Shown: positions 6,115 through 12,876 of the stretch, piece by piece
How the letters are laid out: each line of letters begins with the position of its first letter
How positions within the stretch are numbered: the stretch's first letter is position 1
NCBI GenBank assembly: GCA_009838635.1
Contig: VXRE01000153.1
Coordinates: 1-42,142, forward strand
DNA: 42,142 nucleotides
Direction of reading: 5' to 3'
Origin: Acidimicrobiia bacterium
Lineage (GTDB): Bacteria; Actinomycetota; Acidimicrobiia; Spongiisociales; Spongiisociaceae
Translations under genes and position numbers: made by a program
Notes under the pieces: model-generated
The model's input: the letters and a program-made list of their open reading frames with translations, nothing else
Database searches by the model: none
Told to the model about the DNA's origin: nothing

Positions 6115-6518
6115 CCGCCATCGACACGAACGTACTCGTGCGCTATCTCGTGCGAGACGACGCCGAGCAGGCAGCGGCGGCCCGGGTGCTGCTGGAACGG
6201 TTGACACGCGAACGCCCCGGATACGTCTGTCGCGAGGTTGTGGTCGAGGTCGTATGGGTGCTGGAGCGGGCCTACCGGTTCGGACGAGCACAGATCGCGG
6301 ATGTGCTCCTGGAGCTGGTGGCGACCGACTGCTTGGTGTTCGAGTCTGCCGACGATGTCACCCGCTCGGCGCTCCGCTATCGACAGGGCGGACCCGGTTT
6401 CTCCGATCTGATGATTCTCGCGGCGGCCGACCGGGCCGGAGCGCTACCCCTGCACACCTTTGACGCCCGCCTGGCCGGAGTGGAGGGAGCCAACCTGCTT
6501 CGCGCCCATCAGTCTTGA
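6111..6518 (+). CDS. vapC: PIN-domain ribonuclease toxin (VapC type)
   Basis: This is an endoribonuclease of the PIN fold, presumably held inactive by the AbrB-type protein encoded just upstream with a 4-base overlap. The acidic active site is intact: Asp5 in AIDTNVLVRYL, Glu42/Glu46 in REVVVEVVWVLE, Asp99 in FSDLMILAAA and Asp118 in HTFDARL. At 135 residues it is full length. VapC toxins usually cut tRNA or rRNA at a defined site; which RNA is cut here cannot be told. The gene is followed convergently by the amidase gene after only 50 bases with no clear terminator. The pair looks functional rather than decayed. Confidence 0.87.
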   Translation: MTAIDTNVLVRYLVRDDAEQAAAARVLLERLTRERPGYVCREVVVEVVWVLERAYRFGRAQIADVLLELVATDCLVFESADDVTRSALRYRQGGPGFSDLMILAAADRAGALPLHTFDARLAGVEGANLLRAHQS

Positions 6519-6568
6519 CCCGTTAGTTCCGTCGGACCGGAGGGGATGTCCGGGAAGCCTTGTGGCAC

Positions 6569-7639
6569 CTACTCCAAGATGGGATCGTCACAGCGGACAG
6601 AGCCCGAGTGCGAGTGCGAGTGGAAGACGCGCGTCTCCCGGATGAATCCGGTGCCCGGGCGGTCGGTGGACAGGTAGCCGTAAATGGCGTCTGCGGTGGC
6701 CATGGCGGCGACCGCGATGTATTCGTCGGTGGCGAACAGTCCGGCCTCGGAGGGATTGGAGAGGTACCCGTATTCCACCAGGGCGGACGGGATTGCCGGG
6801 AGGCGTACGATCCCGTACGCGTCCTCGCCGCCCGGGAGTAGGACGCGCAGCACGCCGGCATCGCGCAGGCGGCTCCATGTGACGTTGTCGAACGTGGCCA
6901 GTGCGGAGGTGATCTCCTCGTAGAGCAGCCCACCGAGGCGGGCGGAGTCGGAGCGGGCTCGCTGGGCTGTCGCGGACTGCACGTACACCTCGGTGCCCGG
7001 TACGTTGCTCGTGTCCCAGGTGGGAGCGTTGTGGTGAATCGACACCAGCACCTCGGCCCCGATGGCTCGAAGGGCGTCGGCGAGGGCGGCGCGGACAGAG
7101 ATCAGCATCCCGTAGTCGCCGGTGCGGGTGATCACGGCGGCGATGCCGCGATCGGCGAGTTCGTCCCGGACGGCGAGGCTGAGCCTCAGGTTCAAGTCGC
7201 TCTCCACCAAGCCGTTTGGTCCTATGGCACCGGTGTTCCACCTTCCCCCATGTCCCGGATCCAGCACTACTCTGGCGCTCTCGATCGGCTCACCGGTCGT
7301 GACCTCTGCCGTGTTACCGCACGGCGTCCACACCAGGTAGCCCGTGCCGCTACGTTCGATGACCGCGACCGGAACCCCGAGCGGGGTGATGACAGCCGAA
7401 GGGGTGGTCATGGTCGGTGGGACACCGCCATCGGCACCCGGTTGCGACTCTTCGCCCTCCGGGTAGGTGCCCGCCGGCGCGGCCGGGTCCGGCTCGGGCG
7501 GCGATGCTTCCATCACAGTTTCTGCCGGTGCCGGCTGGGCCGACGCCGGGTTCTCGGCTTCGTTCCCGCCCGCCGCGAGGAGTCCGAGCCCGACGAGGAC
7601 AACGCTTCCCAGGAGAAGGGATGCTCGTCGTTCAGACAA
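6569..7639 (-). CDS. Exported N-acetylmuramoyl-L-alanine amidase (Amidase_3)
   Basis: This zinc amidase cuts the bond between N-acetylmuramic acid and L-alanine in peptidoglycan. A hydrophobic N-terminal segment (about residues 7-24) directs export; there is no lipobox cysteine. A Pro/Glu/Ala-rich linker runs to about residue 80. The catalytic domain then starts with VVLDPGHGG: zinc ligands are His130, Glu146 (LVESDLN) and His202 (SIHHNAP), and catalytic Glu289 is in ALVEYGYLSNP. All key residues are present. The 356-residue length fits an AmiC/CwlM-like domain with no added binding repeats. It stands downstream of the repeat-protein gene on the same strand, separated by a strong hairpin, so it probably has its own promoter. 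Confidence 0.9.
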   Translation of the reverse strand: MSERRASLLLGSVVLVGLGLLAAGGNEAENPASAQPAPAETVMEASPPEPDPAAPAGTYPEGEESQPGADGGVPPTMTTPSAVITPLGVPVAVIERSGTGYLVWTPCGNTAEVTTGEPIESARVVLDPGHGGRWNTGAIGPNGLVESDLNLRLSLAVRDELADRGIAAVITRTGDYGMLISVRAALADALRAIGAEVLVSIHHNAPTWDTSNVPGTEVYVQSATAQRARSDSARLGGLLYEEITSALATFDNVTWSRLRDAGVLRVLLPGGEDAYGIVRLPAIPSALVEYGYLSNPSEAGLFATDEYIAVAAMATADAIYGYLSTDRPGTGFIRETRVFHSHSHSGSVRCDDPILE

Positions 7640-7657
7640 CGCTCGGGCCCCTCGCGG

Positions 7658-7692
7658 GCGCGTGACCGGGGGAGGGTTTCCCGGTCACGCGC
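7658..7692 (-). terminator. Strong 13-bp hairpin between the repeat-protein and amidase genes
   Basis: GCGCGTGACCGGG and CCCGGTCACGCGC pair perfectly over 13 bp with a 9-base loop. It lies downstream of the His-rich repeat gene and 19 bases before the amidase start, both on the minus strand. There is no U-tract. It probably ends the repeat-protein transcript but could also act as a protein-binding site. Confidence 0.6.
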
Positions 7693-7760
7693 TCCTCCCC
7701 GCCGTATCGGCGCGCCTTCGCAGGGGAGGGGTTGGGGTTCACGTCAGGCCGGTTCCGTTG

Positions 7761-8408
7761 CTAGACGCAGTCGTCCGCTTCGTCTGAACTCGAGCCGCTG
7801 TGGTTTGCGGCGCAGTCGGCGGCGTGGTCGGCACCCTGAGCGTGGGCGTGATCGCCCTCCGCGTGGGTGTGATCAGCATCTCCCGTACCGTCCCCGTCAC
7901 AGTCGTCCGCTTCGTCTGAACCCGGGCCGCTGTGGTTTGCGGCGCAGTCGGCGGCGTGGTCGGCGCCTTGGGCGTGGGCATGGTCGCCTTCTGCGTGGGC
8001 GTGGGTGTGATCGCTGCCGTCCCCACTGCCGTCGCCGGCACAGTCCTCCACGGTCTCAGAACCCGAGCCACTGTGGTTGGCAGCGCAGTCGGCCGCATGA
8101 TCGGTGGTCGTAGGGGTGGGGGTATCCCCTACCTGGTTGCTGGTCGGTGGCTGCGCGCCCGAGACGGCGACCACCGGAGCAGTCACCACCTTCCCACCGG
8201 CCTCGGCCGACGGGACGGCATCCGGCACCAGCGCGACCGGAGCAGTCACCACCTGGCCGCCGGCCGGACCCAGCGGCAAGAGGGCTACCGCCAGCATCGC
8301 CACGGGGACGAGTGTCAATAGCCTCTTCCGGCCTCTGCCTACCGGAGGGGCGCCGGGTCGGTGGGCACCTCTCCACGGGTCCGGCGTCCGCGTTCCTGCA
8401 GCGCTCAT
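7761..8408 (-). CDS. Secreted His/Cys/Asp-rich repeat protein, probably metal-binding
   Basis: I recognise no named family. The 215-residue protein has a basic N-terminus, a hydrophobic signal segment (about residues 28-50, ending GPAGG) and a spacer with the duplicated motif VVTAPV. From residue 103 it consists of three repeats starting DHAADCAANHSG: copies at 103-149, 150-193 and a shorter one at 194-215. Each full copy has two Cys, clusters such as DHTHAEGDHAHAQ, and many Asp/Gly residues. Such density of His, Cys and Asp suggests binding of zinc, copper, nickel or a similar metal outside the cell (inference). AAGGAG precedes the ATG. A 14-bp motif shared with the adjacent response-regulator gene lies 59 bases upstream, which suggests joint control. 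Confidence 0.65.
   Translation of the reverse strand: MSAAGTRTPDPWRGAHRPGAPPVGRGRKRLLTLVPVAMLAVALLPLGPAGGQVVTAPVALVPDAVPSAEAGGKVVTAPVVAVSGAQPPTSNQVGDTPTPTTTDHAADCAANHSGSGSETVEDCAGDGSGDGSDHTHAHAEGDHAHAQGADHAADCAANHSGPGSDEADDCDGDGTGDADHTHAEGDHAHAQGADHAADCAANHSGSSSDEADDCV
7764..8102 (-). repeat. In-gene tandem repeat (three units, about 132-141 bp)
   Basis: The units lie at 8102-7962, 7961-7830 and 7829-7764. Stretches near 7930 and 7799 are identical over about 35 bases (CTGTGGTTTGCGGCGCAGTC and onward), so duplication is recent. Copy number may vary between strains. Confidence 0.8.
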
Positions 8409-8466
8409 TCCTTCTCCTTTCGGGGGTTGTACGTTGATTGAGCGCTACCAGTGTCGGGGGTGGTTG

Positions 8467-8480
8467 TGAGCAGACCGTTA
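8467..8480 (-). promoter_or_regulatory. Shared 14-bp motif upstream of the repeat-protein gene
   Basis: On the minus strand the motif reads TAACGGTCTGCTCA, 59 bases before the repeat-protein start. The same motif with one change (TAACAGTCTGCTCA) lies upstream of the response regulator at 11593-11606, in the same orientation to its gene. I infer a binding site of that regulator. Confidence 0.45.
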
Positions 8481-8598
8481 GGCCCGGATCAGGTTCGCGA
8501 TAAGGTTTCGGCCGCCATTGCGGCCCGTTCGGAGGAGGCCAGGGCCAACGTCGGCGGTCCGGGCGCCGCGCGGACCTGCGCGGCTTACCTGCCGATGC

Positions 8599-9498
8599 TC
8601 ACCGGGCGAAGAAGAGTTGGAACTCCATGATGCCGTGGTCCTCGACCGAGATGACGGCGACGGACATCGGAGCGGTCACTCCGTAGTCGCTGAAGATCAC
8701 CGGAGCCGATCCCACGACCACGATGGTGTCCCCGGCGCGTCGAGCTTCCAGATCGAACACGACGCGGTTGGTGACCCCCTTGATCGTGAGGTCTCCCAAG
8801 ACCGACCCTGAGAAACCCTCGCCCTCGACCACCCCGGCGGGCAGCTCCACCGGCTCCGCGAGCCTGAACACGGCCAGCGGAAACTCCTCGGTGTTGAGGG
8901 CTCCCCGCGCATGGCTGTCGCGGTGGCTGTCGTCCGTGCGCAGGCCGGCCATCTCAACCTGCACGGTCGCGGCCACCAGAGCGCCGCCGCTCAGCTCGAT
9001 GGCACCGGCCACCTCGGCGGTGCGACCCACCACGGTGGATTCGTCAACGCCGCCGGCCAGCACCTCCACCACCCGGTATCCGGCAAAGCTGACCGGAACC
9101 TCTCCGGTCGCCCCGTCGGCGCCTTCGCCGGTGACTACGGTCCATACCCCCGCCAATCCGGCCGCCTCGGTGTCCCAGGATGTCGTCTCCGTGCCGCTGT
9201 TCGTCGACAGGGTGTCATCTCCAGCCGCGGCGGTCGATGTGGTGACCGAAGCACCCGGTCCGGCGCTCGGCGCCTCTCCCGAGTTCTCGCTGGATTCGGT
9301 GGCGGGCGTGGAGTCCGATGAGCTGGCGCTCTCGTTGCCGGCCGCGGTCTCCAACTGAGCTACAGCCGCCTCCAGATCTACCGGCTCCGGTCCGTCGGCC
9401 CGGAGGCTCCACCATCCGACCCCGGCGATGGCCACCCACAAGATCACGACCACGGCTCCTGTGATGAGCCTGGTGTGCCTGCTCACGAGTGGACTCAA
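8599..9498 (-). CDS. Membrane-anchored YceI-domain protein
   Basis: This is a 299-residue protein with one N-terminal membrane segment (about residues 12-30, ending VGWWSLRA), a Ser/Thr/Glu-rich linker (about 50-110) and a C-terminal YceI-like lipocalin-type beta-barrel. Typical YceI features are GVWTVV near the barrel start, an RTDDSHRDSHARGALNTEEFP stretch and GDLTIKGVTNRVVFDLEA. YceI domains bind isoprenoid-type lipids in known members; the ligand here is not known. Its start overlaps the kinase stop by 4 bases (ATGA), so it is the third gene of the regulator-kinase-YceI operon and is probably made together with them. It may protect or sense the envelope, but that is inference. Confidence 0.82.
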   Translation of the reverse strand: MSPLVSRHTRLITGAVVVILWVAIAGVGWWSLRADGPEPVDLEAAVAQLETAAGNESASSSDSTPATESSENSGEAPSAGPGASVTTSTAAAGDDTLSTNSGTETTSWDTEAAGLAGVWTVVTGEGADGATGEVPVSFAGYRVVEVLAGGVDESTVVGRTAEVAGAIELSGGALVAATVQVEMAGLRTDDSHRDSHARGALNTEEFPLAVFRLAEPVELPAGVVEGEGFSGSVLGDLTIKGVTNRVVFDLEARRAGDTIVVVGSAPVIFSDYGVTAPMSVAVISVEDHGIMEFQLFFAR

Positions 9499-10868
9499 TG
9501 TTCCGTGGTGGGGAGCTGCACGGTGAATCGGGTACCGGTGGGTCGGCGGGCGGTCACGCTAACCGCGCCTCCCATGACCTCGGTCAGCTCGGCCACGATG
9601 GTCAGGCCCAAACCCGAGCCGGACTCTTCGATTCGGGGCGTGCGCCGCGCCACGTAGAGGCGTTCGAACACGTGGGGCCGGTCCTCGCGGCTGATGCCGG
9701 GACCGTCGTCGTTCACTGTGACAACGGCCCAGGCCTTCTGTCCCTCGTTCTCGATCCGAGACTCGACCTGTACCAGGGAGTCGGCGAACTTGAGGGCATT
9801 CTGAACCAGATTGGCAACGACCTGGGCTACCCGCACCGGGTCGCACCAGGCCATGACGGGCTCCTCGCGGATCACCTTTAACTCGAGGCCCCGATCAGCC
9901 GCTCCCTGGGCGAATCCGGCGCATACCTCCTCCACCACCGCGCCCACATCCGCCAGCCGGCTCTCGAGTGTGAACTCCCGGGCATCCAGCCGGGCCAGGT
10001 CCAGCAGGTCACCCACCAGCCGCTCCAAGCGGATCGCCTCGGAGACGATGACCTCGGCGGCCTGCTCCCGGTTATCCGCCGTGCCATCAGAGATGGCCTC
10101 TCCGTAGCCCCTTATGGAGGTGAGCGGCGTGCGCAGGTCATGGGAGATGGACATCAAGAATCGCTGCTCCAGGCTCTGGGAGCGTTCCAGCGAGGCGGCC
10201 ATCTCGTTGATCGAGGTCGACAGATCGCTGATCTCATCCCGCCGATGCTCCTCCACAGGAACACGGGCGCTGAGGTCGCCGCCCGCGATCAACCGGGTAG
10301 CGTCACGGGCCTGGCCGAGCGGCCTGGCGAGCCGGCGGCCCAGCATCACGGCCACCACCACTCCCAGGGCCAGCGATATGGCCGCCGACACCCCCAACCA
10401 TCGCATTACCGCTGCCAGGAACTGATCGGCGGTGTCGGTCAGGACCACGACGATCGTCACCGAGCCCGCTTGTTCCGTGGCCGCCGCCCACGCGGTTGAG
10501 CCTTGGATCCCGGTGATCGACCCGGTGGCTCCCGAGGCAAGCGGGTGGAGGCCTTCGGCCGGCACATTCTCGGGCAGGTCGCCGATGAATTCCCCGCCAT
10601 CGAGGAGCAGGACGGCCACGTCCTTACGATCCAGATTCTCGGCCGCCCGGTTCAGGTGCGAACTCAGATGGGAACCGAGGTGCGAGTGGTCGTCATCCTC
10701 CACGTGGACCGTCGCCATCAAGCTGGCCAGAACGTCGGCCTCCTGCTCGAGCACCTGCTGGATCGCGTGGCGATCGGTCCGGCGCACCAGGGCAAGGGTC
10801 ACGACTCCGGCCAGCAGCAGGGCCACCGCGACCGTTCCCACCACCGCGATCGACAGCCGCCGCTGCAC
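9495..10868 (-). CDS. Sensor histidine kinase with His/Asp-rich extracellular loop
   Basis: This is the membrane sensor kinase of a two-component system, 457 residues. TM1 is at about 7-28 and TM2 at about 153-176, bracketing an external domain. The start of that domain holds VEDDDHSHLGSHLSSHL (residues 56-72), five His and several Asp that could bind a metal. A HAMP linker follows (177-230), then the H-box SISHDLRTPLTSIRGY with phospho-accepting His243. The N-box VVANLVQNALKFA, G1 VNDDGPGIS and G2 GSGLGLTIVAEL of the ATPase domain are all present. It is encoded 12 bases after the response regulator and overlaps the YceI gene. The His-rich loop and the His-rich neighbour protein suggest a metal signal; antimicrobial or envelope stress are alternatives. 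Confidence 0.9.
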   Translation of the reverse strand: MQRRLSIAVVGTVAVALLLAGVVTLALVRRTDRHAIQQVLEQEADVLASLMATVHVEDDDHSHLGSHLSSHLNRAAENLDRKDVAVLLLDGGEFIGDLPENVPAEGLHPLASGATGSITGIQGSTAWAAATEQAGSVTIVVVLTDTADQFLAAVMRWLGVSAAISLALGVVVAVMLGRRLARPLGQARDATRLIAGGDLSARVPVEEHRRDEISDLSTSINEMAASLERSQSLEQRFLMSISHDLRTPLTSIRGYGEAISDGTADNREQAAEVIVSEAIRLERLVGDLLDLARLDAREFTLESRLADVGAVVEEVCAGFAQGAADRGLELKVIREEPVMAWCDPVRVAQVVANLVQNALKFADSLVQVESRIENEGQKAWAVVTVNDDGPGISREDRPHVFERLYVARRTPRIEESGSGLGLTIVAELTEVMGGAVSVTARRPTGTRFTVQLPTTEH

Positions 10869-10880
10869 GTCCCCTCCCCC

Positions 10881-11585
<705 letters not shown>

Positions 11586-11592
11586 AGAAATA

Positions 11593-11606
11593 TGAGCAGA
11601 CTGTTA
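11593..11606 (-). promoter_or_regulatory. Shared 14-bp motif upstream of the response regulator
   Basis: On the minus strand it reads TAACAGTCTGCTCA. Measured to the preferred GTG start at 11540 it is 53 bases upstream, close to the 59 bases seen for the repeat-protein copy. Its left part (TTAACA) could double as a -35 element. Confidence 0.45.
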
Positions 11607-11637
11607 AGAAAGGTCCCTGCAAGGGAGGTTCCCGGAG

Positions 11638-12876
11638 CTAGCCCTCCTGGCCCTCTAGGTGGTGGGTGATGTTGTAGGTGGCGAGTGTGGGATGCCCGTC
11701 CGGCGCCACCGCCACCTGGGTGACCGACGTGTTGTCCAGGGGACCCAGCGATCCGGCCTTGCCGTAGTCGAATCCCAGGATCGCGGTGGAGTAGGCCTTG
11801 ATCGCCCCGCCGTGTGACGCGGCCGCCACCCGGCGCCCCGCGTAGGTATCGGTGAGGCTGCTGATGAACCCGGTTACCCGGTCCTGGACCTCACTCCATG
11901 TCTCCCCGGTACCGCCCCGCCGGATGTCCTGCCCGTCATGGGGATAGCCGCCGAGCCGGCCCGACGCCTCCAGCTCCTCCCACAGCTCACCCTCCCACTC
12001 ACCGAAGCTCATCTCCACGAGTTCGTCCACCAGCACCGGTGGACGCCCGAAGGCCAACTCCGCCGTGGACGCCGCCCTTCTCAGCGTGGAGGAGAAAACC
12101 TCGTCGGCTGTCCCGATCCATGACGCCAACCGCCGAGCCTGTTCCCGTCCCGCGGGATGCAGATCGCTGTCGACCCGTCCCTGGGCCCGCCGTTCCAGGT
12201 TGGCCTGGGTGACACCGTGACGGATCAGGTCGATCACGATGCCGCCGCCGTCCCGGGTGAAGTCGGCCCAGTACGACACCGGCCCGAGATGGGCGGCGTC
12301 GTTGTAGCGCAGGATGGACGCCTCCTCGCCGTCCAACGCCAGCTCGCAGAAGGAGGTGTTGGACAGGAACCCGAGGCGGCGGCGCCCTATCGGCAGGCCG
12401 AGCAGCCGCCACAGCACCAGCTCGATCAGACCGCCGTGGGTGAACACCAGCCCGATCTGTCCCTCCTCGAGCCGGCCCACCAGGGCGGCCAGCGCCTCCC
12501 AGCCGCGCTCGGACACCTGGCGGGGTGACTCACCGGTCTCGCCCATCCGCAGGTCGTAGTCCTCCTGAAGCCGGACCAGATCGTGGCCGTAGTGGGCTTC
12601 GACCCACTCACCGGGCCGGCCCTCCCAGACGCCGATGTCGCCTTCCCGCCACACCGTCTCCACCCGCGGCCGGAAGCCCGCTATCTCGGCGGTGTGAAGG
12701 GACCGCTCGAGATCGGAGCTCTCCACCAGATCGAACCGCCGGCCGGCCAGCCGGTCGGCGGCCAATCCGGCCTGATGGCGGCCCCGGGCGGTCAACGGCG
12801 AGGAGGTAGCGCCCTGCCAGATCTCGCCGGCGTTGGCTTCGGATTCCCCGTGCCGGACCAGCAGCACCCGTTTCAC
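11638..12876 (-). CDS. Tandem histidine phosphatase (two phosphoglycerate-mutase-like domains)
   Basis: This is a cytoplasmic protein with two complete histidine-phosphatase domains in one chain of 412 residues. Domain 1 has LLVRHGESEAN (phospho-accepting His9) and FTHGG (His147). Domain 2 begins at about residue 213 with IDLIRHGVTQAN (His220) and has AASHGGAIKAYS as its second catalytic His. Both keep the acidic residue region after the first third (VWREGDIGVWEG; EMSFGEWEGELW). Single-domain relatives act on phosphoglycerate, alpha-ribazole phosphate or other phosphomonoesters; the substrate here is unknown. The GTG start at 12876 lies 22 bases after the hppA stop on the same strand, so it may be co-transcribed with the pyrophosphatase. 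Confidence 0.87.
   Translation of the reverse strand: MKRVLLVRHGESEANAGEIWQGATSSPLTARGRHQAGLAADRLAGRRFDLVESSDLERSLHTAEIAGFRPRVETVWREGDIGVWEGRPGEWVEAHYGHDLVRLQEDYDLRMGETGESPRQVSERGWEALAALVGRLEEGQIGLVFTHGGLIELVLWRLLGLPIGRRRLGFLSNTSFCELALDGEEASILRYNDAAHLGPVSYWADFTRDGGGIVIDLIRHGVTQANLERRAQGRVDSDLHPAGREQARRLASWIGTADEVFSSTLRRAASTAELAFGRPPVLVDELVEMSFGEWEGELWEELEASGRLGGYPHDGQDIRRGGTGETWSEVQDRVTGFISSLTDTYAGRRVAAASHGGAIKAYSTAILGFDYGKAGSLGPLDNTSVTQVAVAPDGHPTLATYNITHHLEGQEG

Follow-up and report, generated by a model that had tools for sequence, protein, structure and literature searches.

We examined a 42,142-nucleotide stretch of DNA (the window) for the genes around a protein with tandem His- and Cys-containing repeats, which we call HisCys. 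The gene lies in a block whose order is regulator, kinase, YceI, HisCys and amidase. The features needed for the following account, all on the reverse strand, are:

11591 to 11608 (-): regulatory box CTTAACAGTCTGCTCATA, whose start lies 41 nt before the regulator's conserved GTG
10881 to 11567 (-): response regulator of the OmpR/PhoB type; the conserved GTG at 11567 is taken as the start, the longest open reading frame beginning at 11585
9495 to 10868 (-): sensor histidine kinase (Pfam HAMP, HisKA and HATPase_c)
10653 to 10706 (-): His-rich segment HVEDDDHSHLGSHLSSHL in the predicted outer part of the kinase, seen in alignments
8599 to 9498 (-): YceI-domain protein, overlapping the kinase gene and part of the block in the window's genus
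8465 to 8482 (-): regulatory box CCTAACGGTCTGCTCACA, whose start lies 74 nt before the HisCys ATG
7761 to 8408 (-): HisCys gene, encoding a probably exported His/Cys repeat protein of 215 aa with orthologues in seven further genomes
8259 to 8408 (-): probable signal peptide of HisCys (residues 1-50), charged and then hydrophobic, ending near PAGG|QV, assigned by inspection
7962 to 8102 (-): HisCys unit 1, DHAADCAANHSGSGSETVEDC plus His/Asp linker
7830 to 7961 (-): HisCys unit 2, DHAADCAANHSGPGSDEADDC plus His/Asp linker
7764 to 7829 (-): HisCys unit 3, DHAADCAANHSGSSSDEADDCV, which forms the C-terminus
6569 to 7639 (-): N-acetylmuramoyl-L-alanine amidase, probably exported, downstream of HisCys (Pfam Amidase_3, 5.8e-30)
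6590 to 6625 (-): amidase C-terminal His/Cys tail, FHSHSHSGSVRC; a comparison of four members of the genus shows no more than one change in it

The HisCys start codon is preceded by GAAAGGAGAAGGA, a ribosome-binding site. The protein is probably secreted, as read by eye from an N-terminus that is charged, then hydrophobic, and closes on a sequence resembling A-G-[AG]-Q; in the alignment of HisCys proteins (A6), several positions of this part are invariant. The twin-arginine-like motif RRRFL is complete only in the N-terminus of the orthologue from genome G008, with variants in the others, and we therefore claim no Tat signal. The spacer before the units carries the imperfect repeat VVTAPV (DNA repeat 8173-8202/8236-8265). 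The window's protein contains 16 His and 6 Cys in total, is very acidic past residue 48 (31 Asp/Glu versus 1 Lys/Arg) and has no Met past residue 38; the orthologues in G003 and G009 have one Met each further on.

All three units start with DHAADCAANHSG, at residues 103, 150 and 194 (window 8102, 7961 and 7829), and the repeat region thus spans 7764-8102 exactly, where the first-pass annotation had placed three units. At the DNA level these are three copies of 104 nt, with 90% and 66% identity to the reference copy. The units have the form HAADCAANHSG...DC and are separated by Asp/His linkers (e.g., GDGTGDADHTHAEGDHAHAQGA after units 1 and 2). In the window's protein the pattern is H-x3-C-x3-H, with the second Cys 11 residues past the second His. 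The two Cys per unit in the original description hold for every unit; its figure of about seven His fits unit 1 best, given counts of 7, 6 and 2 for units 1, 2 and 3, the last being low because unit 3 stops after its second Cys. The C-terminus falls one residue past the second Cys of the last unit, both here and in the other orthologues of the family, which suggests that the functional core is probably H-x3-C-x3-H...C and not the full 44-47 aa period.

The proposal that HisCys belongs to no known family agrees with searches of Pfam, NCBIfam and PDB sequences, none of which returned anything above cut-off. Pfam gave no match for the six members of our first profile (A1), nor for the HisCys proteins of G261 and G895, and NCBIfam gave none for the window's protein; the three NCBIfam matches of the G003 protein were all far below cut-off (E 0.098-0.52). 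Among PDB sequences, a two-unit piece of HisCys had no match and the A1 profile had seven weak ones, the best of which, to a Q-beta coat fusion (E 0.0062), was taken as chance or composition. The letters of the unit motif were absent from the literature searched. AlphaFold modelled HisCys with low confidence (mean pLDDT 47.2), placing short helices over the three DHAADCAANH stretches at block-mean pLDDT below 60; its model of the sensor was also poor (42.8).

HisCys is encoded in 6 of the 15 genomes of the family, the window's genome (G000) included. Nearly all genomes used are draft assemblies, 72-97% complete; G004 and G005 (72 and 78% complete) are counted as lacking the gene on the strength of the genome search. 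Across the class, an eight-member profile (A6) reached E 0.001 in 10 of 395 genomes, and strong matches were retained in seven after G208, G046 and G151 (1.3e-5 to 9.8e-4) had been dropped as likely signal-peptide or composition matches. The gene in G895 was found via its kinase and is additional to these seven. The A1 profile matched one of 396 genomes of the phylum, the window's own, and 7 of 395 of the class; the latter included G208 (8.0e-5), which was dropped, and missed G261. A scan of genome contigs returned a single locus, WTGI01000076.1, with the same cassette as G008.

Unit number varies as had been suggested, in this case between species: over eight genomes there are three units in G000, G008, G012, G013 and G003, two in G009, and one in G261 and G895. 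The single unit of the last two reads HDADCAANH and much of the remainder is His/Asp-rich; these proteins, 168 and 165 aa long, contain 20 and 18 His and two Cys each.

The repeats had also been called recently duplicated. In the window's gene, units 2 and 3 agree at 62 of 66 nt over their 22-codon cores, compared with 54-56 of 66 between the same two units within the G012, G008 and G013 genes, and each of the two window units matches its orthologous unit in those genomes at 52-56 of 66 nt. This looks like homogenisation or turnover in the present lineage and not like recent repeat birth. Three-unit orthologues in the same genus (G008, G012 and G013) and in another (G003) rule out a recent origin of the repeats, so that the description fits the near-identity of copies 2 and 3 only.

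We then compared rates of change, taking G000 as reference against four relatives (G012, G008, G013 and G009) that are not mutually independent. Against the first three, dN/dS is about 0.12-0.14 in the repeats and about 0.56-0.62 in the N-terminal part of the protein; against G009 the two values are 0.11 and 0.65. Only 2 of 76 comparisons at His and Cys positions of the repeat region show a replacement (1 of 22 for Cys and 1 of 54 for His), versus 73 of 327 at other residues. By these substitution counts HisCys behaves as coding sequence under selection, and within the repeat region protection is greatest at His and Cys.

The full order regulator-kinase-YceI-HisCys-amidase occurs in four of the five HisCys-bearing genomes of the genus (G000, G008, G012 and G009); in the fifth, G013, the contig ends before the amidase. 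G003, from another genus, has regulator, kinase and HisCys, with YceI on another contig and an N-terminal remnant of the amidase. G261 and G895, from another order, have regulator, kinase, HisCys and amidase without YceI in the block. What stays constant is thus the core of regulator, kinase and HisCys. Nothing in the block was recognised as a metal pump or chaperone. The amidase tail is reduced in G261 (FNPHPASIPC), the G013 regulator (L011:3282-3982) is seemingly frame-shifted near its C-terminus, by decay or sequencing error, and the G012 assembly is evidently faulty in the gap between HisCys and amidase (L009:6221-6623), where long homopolymers of G/C occur together with N.

The six of 15 family genomes that carry HisCys are also those that carry the orthologous kinase (E ≤1e-60), and the other nine lack both. 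Three of these, G010, G011 and G014, keep YceI and fragments of the regulator and/or kinase, without HisCys or the amidase at that place, and comparison of the DNA shows that their deletion edges differ. The G011 deletion is clean (L042:5048-5049): the first 92 residues of the regulator adjoin the end of the kinase gene, and YceI is intact. In G007, which pairs with the window's genome in the tree, the equivalent of 6507-11653 is missing entirely between flanks that are 93-94% identical. The neighbouring PGM and HPPase genes were found in G006, G002 and G001 without the block or any remnant. A tree of four genes places G011 apart from G010 and G014, and both apart from G007 (support 100/0.985 for the clade with G011 and 94/0.977 for G010 with G014), which implies at least three joint losses of HisCys and kinase in the genus. 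The remnants argue for loss; transfer may have taken the place of some of these events. The four genes are neighbours of the locus and two are missing for G013, G006, G003 and G001, so regional recombination could mislead this tree.

Alignment of the regions upstream of the regulator and HisCys genes revealed one common block. The corresponding box (TAAC-N6-CTYAY) precedes both genes in all eight genomes that have both. The two window 18-mers, CTTAACAGTCTGCTCATA and CCTAACGGTCTGCTCACA, match at 15 of 18 positions, a value reached by 2 of 200 shuffled pairs; in G012 and G008 the shared 18-mers match at 16 of 18 (1 and 0 of 200 shuffles), and in G009 and G003 the best shared 18-mer is at chance level, being equalled in 171 and 66 of 200 shuffles. 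We settled on 18 as the word length once the alignment had been seen. About 65 nt upstream of HisCys (within 8410-8600), wider than the box, are conserved across two genera, reading CTTATCGCGACCCTGATCCGGG ... GACACTGGTAG in the window's genus.

A 17-mer defined on the six HisCys-bearing genomes of the family, TTAACNGTYTGCTCAYA, occurs at up to two mismatches exactly twice in each of G000, G008, G012 and G013 (assemblies 84-96% complete), both times at the cassette promoters; the reversed word gives 0, 0, 1 and 0 sites. At the same threshold G009 and G003 have the regulator's promoter plus one and three other places, and the nine family genomes without HisCys have 0-3 sites each, one of which in G010 and one in G014 is the decayed locus itself. 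In the other order, it differs from the target promoters of G261, G895 and G882 by 0, 1 and 2 mismatches and from their regulator promoters by 4, 3 and 3.

A half-site form of the box, worded once the G261, G895 and G882 promoters had been seen and scored at the best place per 130 nt, matches 10-12 of 12 bases at 18 of 18 promoters in nine genomes, with TAAC and CT-A invariant. As a control, 3600 pieces of 130 nt were drawn at random from these loci; 13 score 10 and none scores 11 or 12. The HisCys box is weaker in G009 and G003 (10 of 12). In all 18 sites the half-sites TAAC and T[CT]AY lie 11 bp apart, the two halves agreeing only loosely, and half-sites of OmpR/PhoB-type regulators are about 11 bp apart. 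The box is a candidate site for the regulator, which would bind it as two half-sites. The exact form TTAAC-N6-CTCAYA has 14 matches in 13 genomes, 13 of them at these promoters and none in the four genomes without a cassette. At up to one mismatch the half-site pattern is no commoner overall than its reversed control in the 13 genomes, and we rejected a larger regulon on this ground, although diverged targets could be missed. The promoter scan found no sigma-70-like site. A terminator-like hairpin just upstream of the regulator's box (11614-11626) is at chance level.

In residues 29-158, each of the eight kinases encoded ahead of HisCys has 5-7 His, of which 2-4 are in SHL repeats; this outer part contains no Cys. 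Four homologous kinases (G882, G391, G383 and G065) have 1, 0, 2 and 0 His in the same residues, and HisCys was not found within 12-16 kb around them. Kinase His content and HisCys presence thus appear to go together, which is a strong hint and no proof, since the numbers are small and the eight kinases are related. G882 belongs to the same genus as G261 and G895 and has the same type of regulator and the same box, which there (L113:6372-7027) precedes a different gene, for a 192-aa probably exported protein that lacks H-x3-C-x3-H and has two Pfam matches below cut-off (DUF2680, E 0.055; Cu-binding_MopE, E 0.15). The kinase beside it lacks the His loop, and both sensor and effector have apparently changed within one genus. 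With 148.8 bits, the window's kinase falls well short of the 292.55 bits that the heavy-metal sensor family TIGR01386 requires, and it lies below the cut-offs of all the best 25 of 98 families; the regulator matches PhoB/OmpR-type models, its best 25 matches all lying below their cut-offs.

With a probability of roughly 0.55, we read the locus as a small two-component cassette, self-contained, autoregulated and metal-responsive, with a secreted metal buffer as its dedicated product. A metal ion outside the membrane would be sensed by the kinase's outer part, with its loop of SHL repeats, and the regulator would bind TTAAC-N6-CTCAYA, the box found before its own operon and before HisCys. In the exported protein each unit would present H-x3-C-x3-H and then its other Cys; at a spacing of four residues His and Cys could share one helix face, and the Asp/His linkers could add HxH ligands. 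HisCys may be mostly disordered when empty and fold or clamp on metal, thereby lowering the free ion near the wall. Gain, loss and homogenisation of units, which differ in number between genomes, would change the number of sites.

That metal is the signal, that the units bind it and that buffering is the benefit we infer from sequence and by analogy. Circumstantial support for metal binding comes from the His of the kinase outer part, the His/Cys tail of the amidase and the His/Asp-rich tail of HisCys in the other order. The mature protein is rich in His and Asp, has some Cys and almost no Met, and a divalent borderline metal is likelier for this reason than silver or copper(I); we would place zinc first, then copper(II) or nickel. 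Counting against the metal reading, the amidase and YceI point to the envelope and not to metal alone. Paired Cys outside the membrane may also be oxidised to disulphides. On the same side of the balance are the lack of a recognised metal gene in the block, the kinase's score below the metal-sensor cut-off, the poor AlphaFold models and the weaker HisCys boxes of G009 and G003. More tentatively, the cassette could be a minimal sensor-sponge module in which the kinase changes in concert with a nearly sole target, the His loop matching units that vary in number, and a loop without His going with the same box driving a different exported protein.

Periplasmic silver/copper sponges of the SilE/PcoE type are encoded in sil and pco operons tied to a two-component system. 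HisCys shares with them a small size, probable export, putative ligands spaced i to i+4 and a probably disordered empty state, and by analogy its closest working model is SilE, which is described as disordered, with His/Met spaced i to i+3 or i+4, and as folding on binding Ag+ (PMC5008109). For HisCys, adjacency and a shared box are observed and control by the two-component system is putative. Unlike SilE and PcoE, HisCys uses His/Cys in place of His/Met, its units are tandem and variable in number, and its cassette has no recognised efflux pump and an actinobacterial host; no sequence similarity was found, and neither protein was among the PDB profile matches. ZraR is an NtrC-type regulator, whereas that of the cassette is of the OmpR/PhoB type, and HisCys has no ZraP or CpxP domain match. 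The pairing of a two-component system with a probably exported, putatively metal-linked protein resembles ZraP-ZraSR and CpxP-CpxAR (PMC10848872). The His-rich stretch in the sensor part recalls CusS/CopS-type kinases (TIGR01386), despite the score far below that family's cut-off. A His-rich stretch is described for the CusS periplasmic domain, along with the finding that other sites could make up fully for loss of the loop (PMC10100754), which by analogy counsels caution over the His loop here. Metallothioneins are likewise small, with Cys and His ligands, metal binding by HisCys being assumed in this comparison; HisCys differs in being probably exported, not Cys-dominated (6 Cys versus 16 His), built of H-x3-C-x3-H repeats and without a family match. 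Taken by analogy, HisCys would work like a metal sponge under two-component control, outside all families tested.

The alternative with most in its favour, though we consider it unlikely, is that HisCys acts as CpxP or ZraP do, binding the outer part of the kinase and reporting or damping an envelope-stress signal, with metal as co-signal and the amidase and YceI as effectors. Kinase and HisCys are tightly coupled and matched in His content, the two neighbours point to the envelope, and G882 keeps kinase and box with a different, probably exported target without units; moreover, repression by ZraP of the operon that encodes it is reported to require bound zinc (PMC10848872). Against such a role, none of the HisCys proteins scanned has a Pfam match, and hence none has a CpxP/ZraP-type domain, and G003 has kept HisCys in a block from which the amidase and YceI are absent. 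A redox protein is less probable still. The two nearly invariant Cys per unit could pair in reversible disulphides, either scavenging oxidants or serving as a cue for the kinase, with His tuning the thiols, but His is equally protected, the other order has 18-20 His while Cys falls to two, and the kinase outer part offers His and no Cys.

We give similarly low weight to a calcium-binding or structural wall protein, in which an Asp-rich GDGxGD would bind Ca2+ and the repeats would bridge wall polymers near the amidase. The acidic character past residue 48 and the amidase neighbour agree with this; however, GDGxGD is not conserved in G009, G003, G261 and G895 while H-x3-C-x3-H is kept, and the lack of a Pfam match means that no known calcium repeat is present. 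Finally, the repetitive, GC-rich sequence and narrow distribution (strong matches in 7 of 395 class genomes) could suggest a spurious or decaying low-complexity reading frame. This is very improbable, being contradicted already by the selection and promoter-box results: the low dN/dS of the repeats, the ribosome-binding site, the conserved box and synteny all stand against it.

Should the metal-buffer reading hold, HisCys would represent an unrecognised family of exported metal-binding repeats in a class known mostly from uncultured members, controlled by a two-component system with a regulon of seemingly two promoters. G882 on the one hand and G261 and G895 on the other, all of one genus, would then form a natural experiment on joint change of sensor specificity and effector. 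If the sensor-sponge module is also real, its unit would count as a new metal-binding repeat, and the cassette would record how ligand and effector of a two-component system change together in nature. The homologues with one, two and three units would provide a ready test of unit number against metal capacity.
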